Part shown: positions 10,032 through 14,380 of the stretch, piece by piece
Numbering within the stretch: position 1 is the first letter of the stretch
Layout: each line of letters opens with the position of its first letter
NCBI GenBank assembly: GCA_947460615.1
Contig: CANHHG010000003.1
Location: 1 to 64,000, forward strand
DNA: 64,000 bases
DNA from: Bacteroidota bacterium
GTDB taxonomy: Bacteria; Bacteroidota; Bacteroidia; Flavobacteriales; Flavobacteriaceae
Direction of reading: 5' to 3'
Translations under genes and position numbers: made by a program
Notes under the pieces: model-generated
Seen by the model: only the letters and a program-made list of their open reading frames with translations
Told to the model about the DNA's origin: nothing
Database searches by the model: none

Positions 10032-11741
10032 TTATTCAATATTTTCAAACACTTTGATTTTATCTCGGAATAAAAAGAACTGAAGTAATAAAGCTACTAC
10101 TATTGTCATAATTGCGCCTATAAAATTCAACCATAGGAAACTTACAATATCTAGGTAAAATATATAAAATATCATTAATTGAGTGAAAATAGCTCCCCAG
10201 AAAATGGCTTTTGCACGAATGTATTTTATGTAAAAACCAACTAAGAAAATGCCTAAAACGGTACCATAGAAAATGGATCCAATTATATTCACCAACTGAA
10301 TTAAATTCTCAAACAAGGTTCCAATACAAGCAAACAGAATCGCTACTATTCCCCAAAATACTGTAAATACTCTGGTTGCATTTACATAATGTTTATCGGA
10401 TTTTTCTACTTTTAAATTACGTTTGTAAATATCGATTGCTGTGGTTGACGCTAATGCAGTTAATCCTGAAGCGGTCGACGACATGGCAGCCGATAATATT
10501 ACCGCTAATAAAAGTCCAATTAATCCTTTAGGTAAGTAGTTCAGAATAAAATTTATAAACACATAATCTTTATCATTCGTCTCTGCTTTTGCATCCGCTT
10601 TTGAAATTAATTCCTTGGCTTGATCTCTCAGGTCATTTTCCTTGTAAGATAATGCGGTGAGTTTTTTTCTCAATATTGGATTGTCATAATTCTGATTTAA
10701 ATGGTCAATATACAAAAGATTGAACTCCTTTTTTTCTTCGGACAAATCCACAAGCTGTTTTTCTAATTGGTGGTATTCTTCCTTGTAAATGGATTTTTCA
10801 ATTACCACTTTATTGTTCGGATTAAAATTCAATGGAACCGGATTGAATTGGAAAAACACGAAAACCATGACTCCAATTAAAAGAATAAAAAACTGCATTG
10901 GGACTTTTAAAAAGCCATTCATAATTAATCCCATTTGACTTTCTCGAATAGATTTACCTGATAAATAACGACCTACCTGAGATTGATCGGTACCAAAATA
11001 GGACAAAGCAAGGAAAAACCCTCCAGTAATTCCACTCCAAAAAGTGTATCGTGTTTCTGGATCAAATGAGAAATCGACTATATTCATTTTGTCATTTGCA
11101 CCAGCTATGTGAAGCGCATTTCCAAAAGTCATGTCGTTGGGTAATAAATGTAAAATCAAGAAAAAGGTGGCTATCATTCCAAACATAATGACAAACATTT
11201 GGTGTTTTTGCGTTACGTTTACAGCCTTGGTACCTCCAGAAAACGTGTAAATAATTACCAGTGAACCAATAATAATATTCAGTTGGGTTAAATTCCAACC
11301 CAATATAGAAGATAGTATGATGGATGGTGCGTAAATAGTTATTCCAGTTCCTAAACCGCGTTGTACCAAAAATAAAATAGAGGCTAAGGAACGCGTTTTT
11401 AGATCGAAACGCTCTTCTAAATATTCATAGGCAGTAAATACTTTTAACTTATGGTAAATTGGGATAAAGGTCATGCTAATCACCACCATCGCAATAGGTA
11501 ACCCAAAATAAAACTGCACAAATCCCATTCCGTCATGATACGCTTGGCCAGGCGTAGAAAGGAACGTAATTGCGCTAGCTTGAGTGGCCATCACGGAAAG
11601 TCCTACGGTCCACCAAGGTGTTTCATTATTTCCTAAAATGTACTCTTTTACATTTGCAGTGCTGCCTTTTGTTTTCCAAACGCCATAAATAACGATAAAA
11701 AGCAGGGTGATTACGAGTATTATCCAATCAATTTGTTGCAT
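10032..11741 (-). CDS. sodium:solute symporter (SSS family)
   Basis: Multi-TM; EYILGNNETPWWTVGLSVMATQASAITFLSTPGQAY; hydrophilic insertion LEKQLVDLSEEKKEF... Confidence 0.9.
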   Translation of the reverse strand: MQQIDWIILVITLLFIVIYGVWKTKGSTANVKEYILGNNETPWWTVGLSVMATQASAITFLSTPGQAYHDGMGFVQFYFGLPIAMVVISMTFIPIYHKLKVFTAYEYLEERFDLKTRSLASILFLVQRGLGTGITIYAPSIILSSILGWNLTQLNIIIGSLVIIYTFSGGTKAVNVTQKHQMFVIMFGMIATFFLILHLLPNDMTFGNALHIAGANDKMNIVDFSFDPETRYTFWSGITGGFFLALSYFGTDQSQVGRYLSGKSIRESQMGLIMNGFLKVPMQFFILLIGVMVFVFFQFNPVPLNFNPNNKVVIEKSIYKEEYHQLEKQLVDLSEEKKEFNLLYIDHLNQNYDNPILRKKLTALSYKENDLRDQAKELISKADAKAETNDKDYVFINFILNYLPKGLIGLLLAVILSAAMSSTASGLTALASTTAIDIYKRNLKVEKSDKHYVNATRVFTVFWGIVAILFACIGTLFENLIQLVNIIGSIFYGTVLGIFLVGFYIKYIRAKAIFWGAIFTQLMIFYIFYLDIVSFLWLNFIGAIMTIVVALLLQFFLFRDKIKVFENIE

Positions 11742-11744
11742 ATT

Positions 11745-11852
11745 CTAGGAAAATAGTTGCATTATAATCAAGTAAAATAAAATATAAATCGCATTTGCAA
11801 TCAACACCCAAGAGTAATTTTTTTTCCATAATTTATTTTCATTATCGTTCAT
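11745..11852 (-). CDS. 35-aa single-TM micro-protein between PIG-L deacetylase and SSS symporter genes
   Basis: MNDNENKLWKKNYSWVLIANAIYILFYLIIMQLFS*; starts 2 nt after the upstream stop and ends 3 nt before the SSS start; not in the supplied ORF track. Confidence 0.65.
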   Translation of the reverse strand: MNDNENKLWKKNYSWVLIANAIYILFYLIIMQLFS

Positions 11853-11854
11853 AA

Positions 11855-14380
11855 TTACTTTATTGAAATTAGGTTAGAAATCAAACGGTACGCTCCAGAA
11901 ACTCCTTCTGGTAACTCTCTAAAAAAGCTTAACCCGGTATAGATGTAGTTTCCTTTTCCGTATTTAGCAACCAATAAAGCTCCATTTTTTGGTGATTCCC
12001 CTTTGTCATTAGTAGATAAAATAGGAGTGAAAGCTGGGTCCCATTCACTTGGATAATACAATCCTTGTTCTTGTGTCCAACCCTCAAAATCTTTTGTTGA
12101 AATCTTGTTAGGATAGTTTAATACAGGATGTTCGGGAGCTAAAAAGCGCACTTTGGCATTTTCATCCGTTACCCGATCTCTTGAAATTTTAATTGGAAAT
12201 GGGGCAATATTATTAGTTACTAATTCATCCGTGGTATTGTATTGAACTATCATGGTTTTGCCTTCTTTTACGAAATCTAAAAGAACATCTTGCTTAAATT
12301 TCAATTCTTTAACCGTGTTATAAGCTCTTATCCCAGTCATAAATACATCAAAATACTCCAGTTTTTCTTTTGTAATTTCACTCGGATTAATTTCGGTCAC
12401 TTCATAACCCATTTGCTTCAAGCTTTTTGGAACTTCGTCACCAGCTCCCATTAAATAAGCAATTTTTTCATTTCCGTTTTTTATATCCAATTTAATGAAT
12501 CTTGCTTCCGAAGTTCTAAGTATTTGCTGCTTTGAAATGTGCTCGTAATTGATATTTATTTGCTCTTTGTCAAACAGTTTCCCATTTACAATAGCGATTG
12601 CTTTCACTGTAATTTCATCCGCATTTTTTGGAGGAAATACTTCGAAGTGTACTGTTTGTTCTTCTCCTTTTTTGCTCAAGGCAAATGCAATCTCGATTGG
12701 ATTTACTTTCCAATTTGATGGAACATCTAATTTTATTTTTCCATTTTCTATTTCTTTTCCAGCTTTGATTTTAATATCAATTATTTTTGATTTACCTGAA
12801 TTAAATAAGGCTACTTTATCAACTATTAACAAGGATATTTCGGGAACAATATTTAAAGGATTGTAAATTTCTCCTTTGGTAGGGTCGTTGTATTTATAAA
12901 TTATATTTCGTTCAAACGGAATGGTAACACCATTAATTTCAATATTAAACACCAATTTAACTTCTCTTATAATATCTGCAATTCCAATGTTTTGTTGCTC
13001 ATTAACATTATACATTCCAACAGTCCCTTTTTCGTTTAACCAATAAGGATTGGTATGGCTTATCGTTTCTGGTAGTTGAATATCGATTTTATTATTTAAA
13101 GAGATATTGTATTTTAATTCGCTATTAATAATCGTGTTTTTACCCTCTGGCATGGAAAAAATGCTCTTTAAAATCATTGGATTGACACTTCTATTGATCG
13201 TTTCAATTTTCACATTCAGGGAGCTATTAGGAGTTGCGGTTTGATTTTCTGTAACACCTTCAAGATACAAACCGGAACAAGCAGTAATTACCTTTTTAAG
13301 TTCTTCTGTTTTTATAGTTTTCCAATGCTCTTCTTCTAATAATTGAATCATAGAATAGGCTTTCACTAAATTCGGAATGCTTAAAGCTGGGTTTTTGAAA
13401 TCATATTCTTTCAATATTTTTTGAATTAATTCACCTACAGCTGCGCCGCCTTTCACACGATTCCATGAGGTGTCAACTCCTTCAAATAGGTTACTTTTGT
13501 TATTTAATGAAGTTCCTTTCAGAAATTCCAAATATTCCATTTCTTCTCCACGACTACCGGTGCTTCCAAATCCTTGTGATTGATGACAACTTCTGCTTAA
13601 TGCTGCAATTTCTTGATTTGATTTTCCGATTGAAGGGTAATAAACGCCTATTTGTAAAGAAGATAAGTTGGTTTTATCGGCTGCGTCAAATTTTTCTTTA
13701 CTTCCATAAAACCACCAGGAGGTATTAAAAAATTGTCTTTTTGGCTGCCAAGGTTTCACCCATTTTAACTGATTTGGAAATACATTCGCATTGTTAGCCA
13801 AATCGAAACTTTCCACACTCAATAGGGCAGAAGCGGTATGATGTCCATGGGTTGTACCTGGAGAACGATGATCAAAACGATTGATGATGACATCGGGTTG
13901 AAATTTTCGAATAGCCCAAACAACATCACTTAAAACTTGGTTTTTATCCCAGATTTGCAAAGTCTCCTCTGGATTTTTAGAGTATCCAAAATCATTGGCC
14001 CGGGAAAAAAATTGCTCTCCACCATCTATTTTTCGGGCTTCAAGTAGTTCTTGTGTTCGAATCACGCCCAATTGCTCTCGTAATTCTGGACCAATTAAAT
14101 TCTGTCCTCCGTCACCACGTGTTAATGATAAGTAACCGGTTCTAGCCATTTTCTCGTTGGATAAATAGGAAATCAATCGGGTGTTTTCATCGTCGGGATG
14201 CGCTGCAATGTACAACACCGAACCTAAGAAATTTAGTTTTTCAATTTGGTTGTAAATAGCGGCAGAATTGGGTTTTACAGGCTGCTGTCCAAAAGATATT
14301 TGTGCAAAACAATAGAAAATTAATAGTTTTATTGCAATCGGTTTTTTCATTATTGAAATCATTATTTGCTTTAGCTTCAA
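11855..14380 (-). CDS. PIG-L (LmbE) family deacetylase, large multidomain, secreted
   Basis: AAHPDDENTRLISYLSNEK...TRGDGGQN...HGHHTASA; signal peptide; C-terminal domain VFMTGIRAYNTV... Confidence 0.9.
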   Translation of the reverse strand: MKLKQIMISIMKKPIAIKLLIFYCFAQISFGQQPVKPNSAAIYNQIEKLNFLGSVLYIAAHPDDENTRLISYLSNEKMARTGYLSLTRGDGGQNLIGPELREQLGVIRTQELLEARKIDGGEQFFSRANDFGYSKNPEETLQIWDKNQVLSDVVWAIRKFQPDVIINRFDHRSPGTTHGHHTASALLSVESFDLANNANVFPNQLKWVKPWQPKRQFFNTSWWFYGSKEKFDAADKTNLSSLQIGVYYPSIGKSNQEIAALSRSCHQSQGFGSTGSRGEEMEYLEFLKGTSLNNKSNLFEGVDTSWNRVKGGAAVGELIQKILKEYDFKNPALSIPNLVKAYSMIQLLEEEHWKTIKTEELKKVITACSGLYLEGVTENQTATPNSSLNVKIETINRSVNPMILKSIFSMPEGKNTIINSELKYNISLNNKIDIQLPETISHTNPYWLNEKGTVGMYNVNEQQNIGIADIIREVKLVFNIEINGVTIPFERNIIYKYNDPTKGEIYNPLNIVPEISLLIVDKVALFNSGKSKIIDIKIKAGKEIENGKIKLDVPSNWKVNPIEIAFALSKKGEEQTVHFEVFPPKNADEITVKAIAIVNGKLFDKEQININYEHISKQQILRTSEARFIKLDIKNGNEKIAYLMGAGDEVPKSLKQMGYEVTEINPSEITKEKLEYFDVFMTGIRAYNTVKELKFKQDVLLDFVKEGKTMIVQYNTTDELVTNNIAPFPIKISRDRVTDENAKVRFLAPEHPVLNYPNKISTKDFEGWTQEQGLYYPSEWDPAFTPILSTNDKGESPKNGALLVAKYGKGNYIYTGLSFFRELPEGVSGAYRLISNLISIK

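Follow-up and report, generated by a model that had tools for sequence, protein, structure and literature searches.

Genomic context of the small gene

The locus studied here lies in a window of 64,000 nucleotides (the whole stretch of DNA analysed) and contains three closely spaced genes on the minus strand:

10032..11741, minus strand: partner gene, a sodium:solute symporter (SSS/SSF) of 569 aa, whose closest solved structures are SiaT, NIS and SMCT1
11745..11852, minus strand: small gene, a 35-aa single-helix membrane protein with a charged N-tail, a putative W9-x3-Y13 interface motif and one TM helix reaching the C-terminus; its product is the proposed accessory subunit
11855..14350, minus strand: upstream gene, a large exported PIG-L family deacetylase of 831 aa, a frequent, non-obligatory neighbour

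The small gene runs from an ATG at 11852 to a TAG stop at 11747-11745 and encodes MNDNENKLWKKNYSWVLIANAIYILFYLIIMQLFS (35 aa). Its start follows the PIG-L stop (TAA, 11857-11855) after only two nucleotides (TT), and its own stop is separated from the SSS ATG at 11741 by 3 nt (AAT), exactly as given in the initial annotation of this DNA. The flanking genes had also been named correctly, as the SSS protein matched PF00474 (SSF; E=4e-40) and TIGR00813 (1.4e-70) and the upstream protein matched PIG-L PF02585 (6.5e-14) in searches of Pfam and NCBIfam. The SSS protein is nearest to SiaT, NIS and SMCT1 in both sequence and fold, and shares 95% identity with its nearest named relative in the genome collection; the assembly is Flavobacterium-like. 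In the open-access literature, we found neither a described function for the PIG-L-SSS pair nor any paper on the small gene. A search of Rfam gave no match, and a promoter and terminator scan gave no excess over shuffled sequences.

Two features of the neighbouring proteins were also observed. Residues of about 315-390 of the SSS protein (gene 10032-11741) form a charged, probably helical insertion of ~75 residues between core TM helices, which varies among clades. The PIG-L neighbour (11855-14350), which is exported, is unusually large with 831 aa, and a similar protein precedes the SSS orthologue in many families of Bacteroidota.

Conservation and selection

The size of the small gene by itself is no better than chance: 95 ORFs of at least 30 aa were present within a 13-kb stretch, and a 33-aa ORF in another frame (11728-11829) overlaps the small gene and occupies the same gap. 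Since chance ORFs of this size are common, the case for a gene rests on comparison. The family was sampled with one genome per genus (201 in all), and 165 of these genomes gave matches to the small gene at a lax threshold. At the best 30 loci of the family, a small ORF was located immediately upstream of the orthologous SSS gene in all 30, with PIG-L as the upstream neighbour in 29; W9, L17, N20 and Y23 were invariant among the 30 aligned small proteins. Within the genus, 54 of 61 genomes had the small gene, and the good-quality genomes that lacked it also lacked the SSS orthologue.

An independent scan of named genomes, which started from the SSS gene, covered 80 loci from Flavobacterium to Saprospiraceae. 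A homologous small ORF was present upstream of SSS at every one of them (80/80; at one locus without a clear start codon), with a length of 28-50 aa (28-43 aa in nearly all), a charged N-terminus, a single helix and the W-x3-Y motif. Thus, the reading frame was kept at the same place in the best 30 loci of the family and in all 80 named loci. The gap between small gene and SSS was usually 1 or 3 nt at the named loci, and ATGA overlaps occurred in many distant families; such spacing would indicate co-translation of the two genes.

The initial annotation had also pointed to dN/dS as a check on this micro-ORF. In comparison with its closest relative, the small gene had 7 synonymous and 5 non-synonymous differences (dN/dS 0.12), and the pooled dN/dS over 39 independent pairs was 0.19, with 173, 104 and 346 differences at codon positions 1, 2 and 3, respectively. 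These figures are approximate because synonymous distances are large; they imply purifying selection and are not near 1. On such comparative grounds, the small ORF is a real gene. The idea that the ORF arose by chance in an AT-rich stretch between genes, favoured by the abundance of thirty-codon ORFs there, is refuted: sequence, place and frame are conserved in some dozen families or more, and dN/dS is well below 1. We consider its probability practically nil.

The symporter, not the deacetylase, is the constant neighbour

To the initial annotation, the spacing of the three genes suggested a translationally coupled three-gene operon. This is the usual arrangement, but it is not obligatory, as PIG-L was absent at about half of the distant loci. 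Among 40 distant loci, the SSS gene was directly downstream of the small gene in 38 and displaced in 2, whereas PIG-L was upstream in 20. With PIG-L missing from half of these loci and SSS from none, the small gene tracks SSS and not PIG-L. It is therefore very improbable that the small protein really works with PIG-L or some other protein and that SSS is a passive neighbour, even though PIG-L lies upstream in 29 of the 30 family loci mentioned above; in addition, the sequence of the exported PIG-L protein is not that of a membrane partner.

Distribution across Bacteroidota

We examined a phylum sample of 396 Bacteroidota genomes with a profile of the small gene (A2). Relatives were detected in 126 genomes, belonging to families f1, f3, f4, f5, f8, f9, f10, f15, f17, f24, f25, f35 and f48 (codes that carry no family names). 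All 102 matches with E<=5.7e-4 were at the SSS locus, on the same strand and directly upstream, except four that were ~15 kb upstream. The adjacent arrangement of small gene and SSS was found in 108 genomes of this sample and the SSS orthologue in 145, which leaves 37 SSS-bearing genomes with no adjacent profile match, including the four displaced cases. Of the remaining 33, 28 were inspected, and in 25 of these a divergent one-helix ORF adjoined the SSS start or overlapped it, such as MNKKLKNWNTWYLLLTAALILQIAFYYWFTKFWA in f2. In a few of these divergent ORFs (f38, f51 and f34), W-x3-Y is not complete, and they may be analogous in position only. In total, the small gene accompanies about 137 of the 140 SSS orthologues examined among the 145, counts that come partly from by-eye reading of short upstream ORFs. 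On the other hand, it was upstream of none of 20 SSS paralogues (24-35% identity).

Four genomes have cleanly lost the small gene but retained SSS, three in the phylum sample (G354, G336 and G308) and one in another sample (G065), which shows that the small gene is dispensable in some lineages. In f38, four loci (L292, L293, L294 and L299) have a one-helix ORF without W-x3-Y before SSS, e.g. MTELDQKSSESYIRTLIRVFAAQGIIMLILWLLHAIYN, which is either a homologue or a positional analogue.

Small genes separated from the symporter gene

The four displaced cases (G225, G236, G251 and G297) belong to one genus of f24, in which the small gene is 14.6-15.3 kb upstream of SSS. In G236 and G251, the inserts carry, on the opposite strand, genes for an SLC13-type symporter, a PcRGLX-like enzyme, a ROK kinase, an MFS transporter, a SusC/D pair and PIG-L; that of G236 also carries a NagB-like isomerase. 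At loci L300 (1938-17086) and L301 (1805-16097), such a cluster of amino-sugar utilisation genes, in opposite orientation, is placed exactly between the small gene and SSS, with the NagB-like isomerase in L300; the spacing is alike in four species of the genus. The displaced small gene is intact, with dN/dS of 0.05-0.28 (based on few substitutions). A different kind of separation was seen at L023, where an ORF of ~120 aa (MVSLESYILRSDPLLEFILYQ..., 1600-1970) lies between the two genes.

These cases bear on the possibility that the short ORF is a cis-acting leader, whose translation would only set the translation rate of SSS and whose peptide would have no role of its own. The gaps of 1 or 3 nt at most loci and the ATGA overlaps would suit such a leader. 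However, selection acts at the amino-acid level (dN/dS 0.12-0.19), the small gene has been kept across ~15 kb of oppositely oriented genes and in L023 across another ORF, and SSS keeps a short-gap start in lineages that have lost the small gene. Because the displaced gene remains intact under selection, it would act in trans as a protein and not as a leader, and we regard the leader explanation as improbable, if less so than a PIG-L partnership.

Topology and structural modelling

The window peptide has one hydrophobic stretch, modelled by AlphaFold as a helix of residues 11-34 with low confidence. Across the small proteins, the N-tail has a mean of 4.0 K/R residues vs 0.27 in the C-tail. By the positive-inside rule, a K/R-rich tail stays in the cytoplasm, so we infer an N-in orientation from the charge pattern. 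Known SSS proteins have a periplasmic N-terminus; an N-in small protein would therefore end on the side where SSS begins.

In the window, the small ORF and SSS are in the same frame (TAG AAT ATG). A tethered AlphaFold model of the read-through chain of small protein and SSS (73 rows) reached a pLDDT of 74, with only 54-60 for the small helix, and the folds that it matched were SSS structures. A read-through or fused product was rejected as a general explanation, as 41 of the 80 named loci had no clean in-frame read-through, mostly owing to a gap length that changes the frame, and as different stop codons are used; no natural fusion of small gene and SSS was found. We also considered mutual information between the two proteins (195 unique pairs, Meff 70) as a guide to contacts. 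Its top pairs, N20/Y23 with SSS positions 483/487/490 and position 33 with the loop at 325-391, were not read as contacts: they mirror the split between clades, which confounds the signal.

Comparison with known small membrane proteins

Neither the window peptide nor 20 of its relatives matched any Pfam or NCBIfam model, and a profile search of the structure database gave no match to the small protein. The initial annotation had likened it to two small partners of SSS transporters. The first, DUF4212 or Na_symport_sm (PF13937, TIGR03647), is the small subunit beside SSS proteins of the VC_2705 type; it is likewise a small membrane protein encoded just upstream of SSS on the same strand, and has a W-K-x-x-aromatic/aliphatic segment before its first helix. 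However, DUF4212 proteins have ~80-90 aa, two helices and a core, GGFKLGFWFAQQGS, conserved among the nine DUF4212 proteins read, whereas the window peptide stops after one helix, and their partner is a different SSS, for TIGR03648 scores 57 on the window SSS against a cut-off of 321. The window peptide matches neither PF13937 nor TIGR03647. Comparison by hhalign of the small gene with the first DUF4212 helix aligned W to W, at a probability of 5.7% (E 0.0067 for one comparison). This likeness of the first helix is at best suggestive, although in the right register, and does not establish homology. PF13937 was not found in the genome of the window, and there are genomes that encode both the DUF4212 and the small-gene family.

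The second, Escherichia coli YhdT (DUF997), is also a small membrane protein, encoded by a gene that overlaps with the beginning of the SSS gene panF, but it has 80 aa, and the proposed likeness did not hold: hhalign gave a probability of 0.2%, and the small protein did not match the DUF997 model. Another small ORF that shares an operon with an SSS gene encodes the DUF3311 protein beside MctP in rhizobia; the DUF3311 model was absent from 61 Bacteroidota genomes searched. The small gene showed no relation to DUF3311 or DUF997.

The closest known functional analogue of the small protein is found with human SGLT2 (SLC5A2), a kidney glucose transporter with 14 TM helices, which is also an SSS-family symporter tied to a protein with one TM helix, MAP17 (PDZK1IP1). 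MAP17 places its single helix on TM13 of SGLT2 as an essential auxiliary subunit; SGLT2 depends on it for robust activity or expression at the surface, and later work favours a role in folding, stability or surface expression (PMC10803289). The profile search of the structure database detected no sequence relation between MAP17 and the small protein. As SiaT, NIS and SMCT1, to which the window SSS is nearest, are of the 13-TM type, the docking site must differ from that of MAP17, and no identical site would exist if TM13 is lacking. One-helix proteins of ~30-50 aa, such as MgtS, MgtR and AcrZ, also act on transporters (PMC10710835). Their targets are P-type ATPases, RND pumps and PitA, not SSS, and no sequence relation to the small protein is known.

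Proposed function and its main alternative

Based on these comparisons, we propose, with a probability of roughly 75%, that the small protein is a one-helix inner-membrane accessory subunit that stabilises or tunes a 13-TM-type SSS symporter in a way similar to MAP17 and SGLT2. It would be made from the SSS message, just ahead of one particular SSS. Its lysine-rich N-tail would stay in the cytoplasm, W-x3-Y would lie where the membrane surface faces the cytoplasm, and the helix would end almost at the periplasmic face. Packed against SSS in the membrane, it may aid folding, stability or cycling, as MAP17 does for SGLT2. The minimal one-helix subunit suggested in the initial annotation is well in line with the conserved frame, the low dN/dS and the N-in charge pattern, with physical binding as the inferred step; the small gene is also tied to the SSS orthologue, not to its paralogues or to PIG-L, and is kept after separation from SSS. 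Against this proposal, the four clean losses indicate that SSS can do without the small gene in some lineages, the tethered AlphaFold model has low confidence for the small helix, and covariation with SSS is confounded by clade. Moreover, the DUF3311 protein beside MctP, a better-studied small protein encoded next to a different SSS, had a negligible deletion phenotype for growth on pyruvate (PMC9100948).

The main rival to a subunit is a small non-stoichiometric membrane regulator of the symporter, which might, for example, serve as an adaptor for proteolysis or a protector, in the manner of MgtR or MgtU, or inhibit its target as MgtS does PitA. Known one-helix proteins act on transporters in this way (PMC10710835), and size and topology would fit equally well. 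However, such regulators are often expressed apart from their targets, whereas the small gene is encoded together with SSS, just before it, in nearly all genomes; a constitutive partner fits this better, and we consider a regulator unlikely, albeit the least unlikely of the alternatives.

The substrate of this symporter is probably an amino sugar or a similar compound, considering its PIG-L neighbours and the cluster of PIG-L, NagB, ROK and SusCD genes inserted at the locus in one genus.

It is customary to treat SSS symporters as transporters with a single chain. If the subunit proposal is true, a conserved one-helix partner that has no family model and accompanies this SSS across Bacteroidota would call for a different approach to cloning, assaying and modelling these transporters, and would offer a bacterial counterpart to MAP17-SGLT2, whose role remains debated. 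More tentatively, and at somewhat less than even odds, this may be a phylum-wide unnamed family of one-helix SSS subunits that was ancestral in Bacteroidota and is a structural part of the symporter, possibly replacing the extra C-terminal helix of 14-TM SGLTs, so that single-helix subunits would be recurrent in SSS transporters from bacteria to humans.

Natural experiments are available in the lineages that have SSS and lost the small gene and in the genus that has 15 kb of DNA between them. At the clean-loss loci (L110, L282, L296 and L297), PIG-L and SSS now abut or overlap, which makes these loci a useful contrast for finding the interface.
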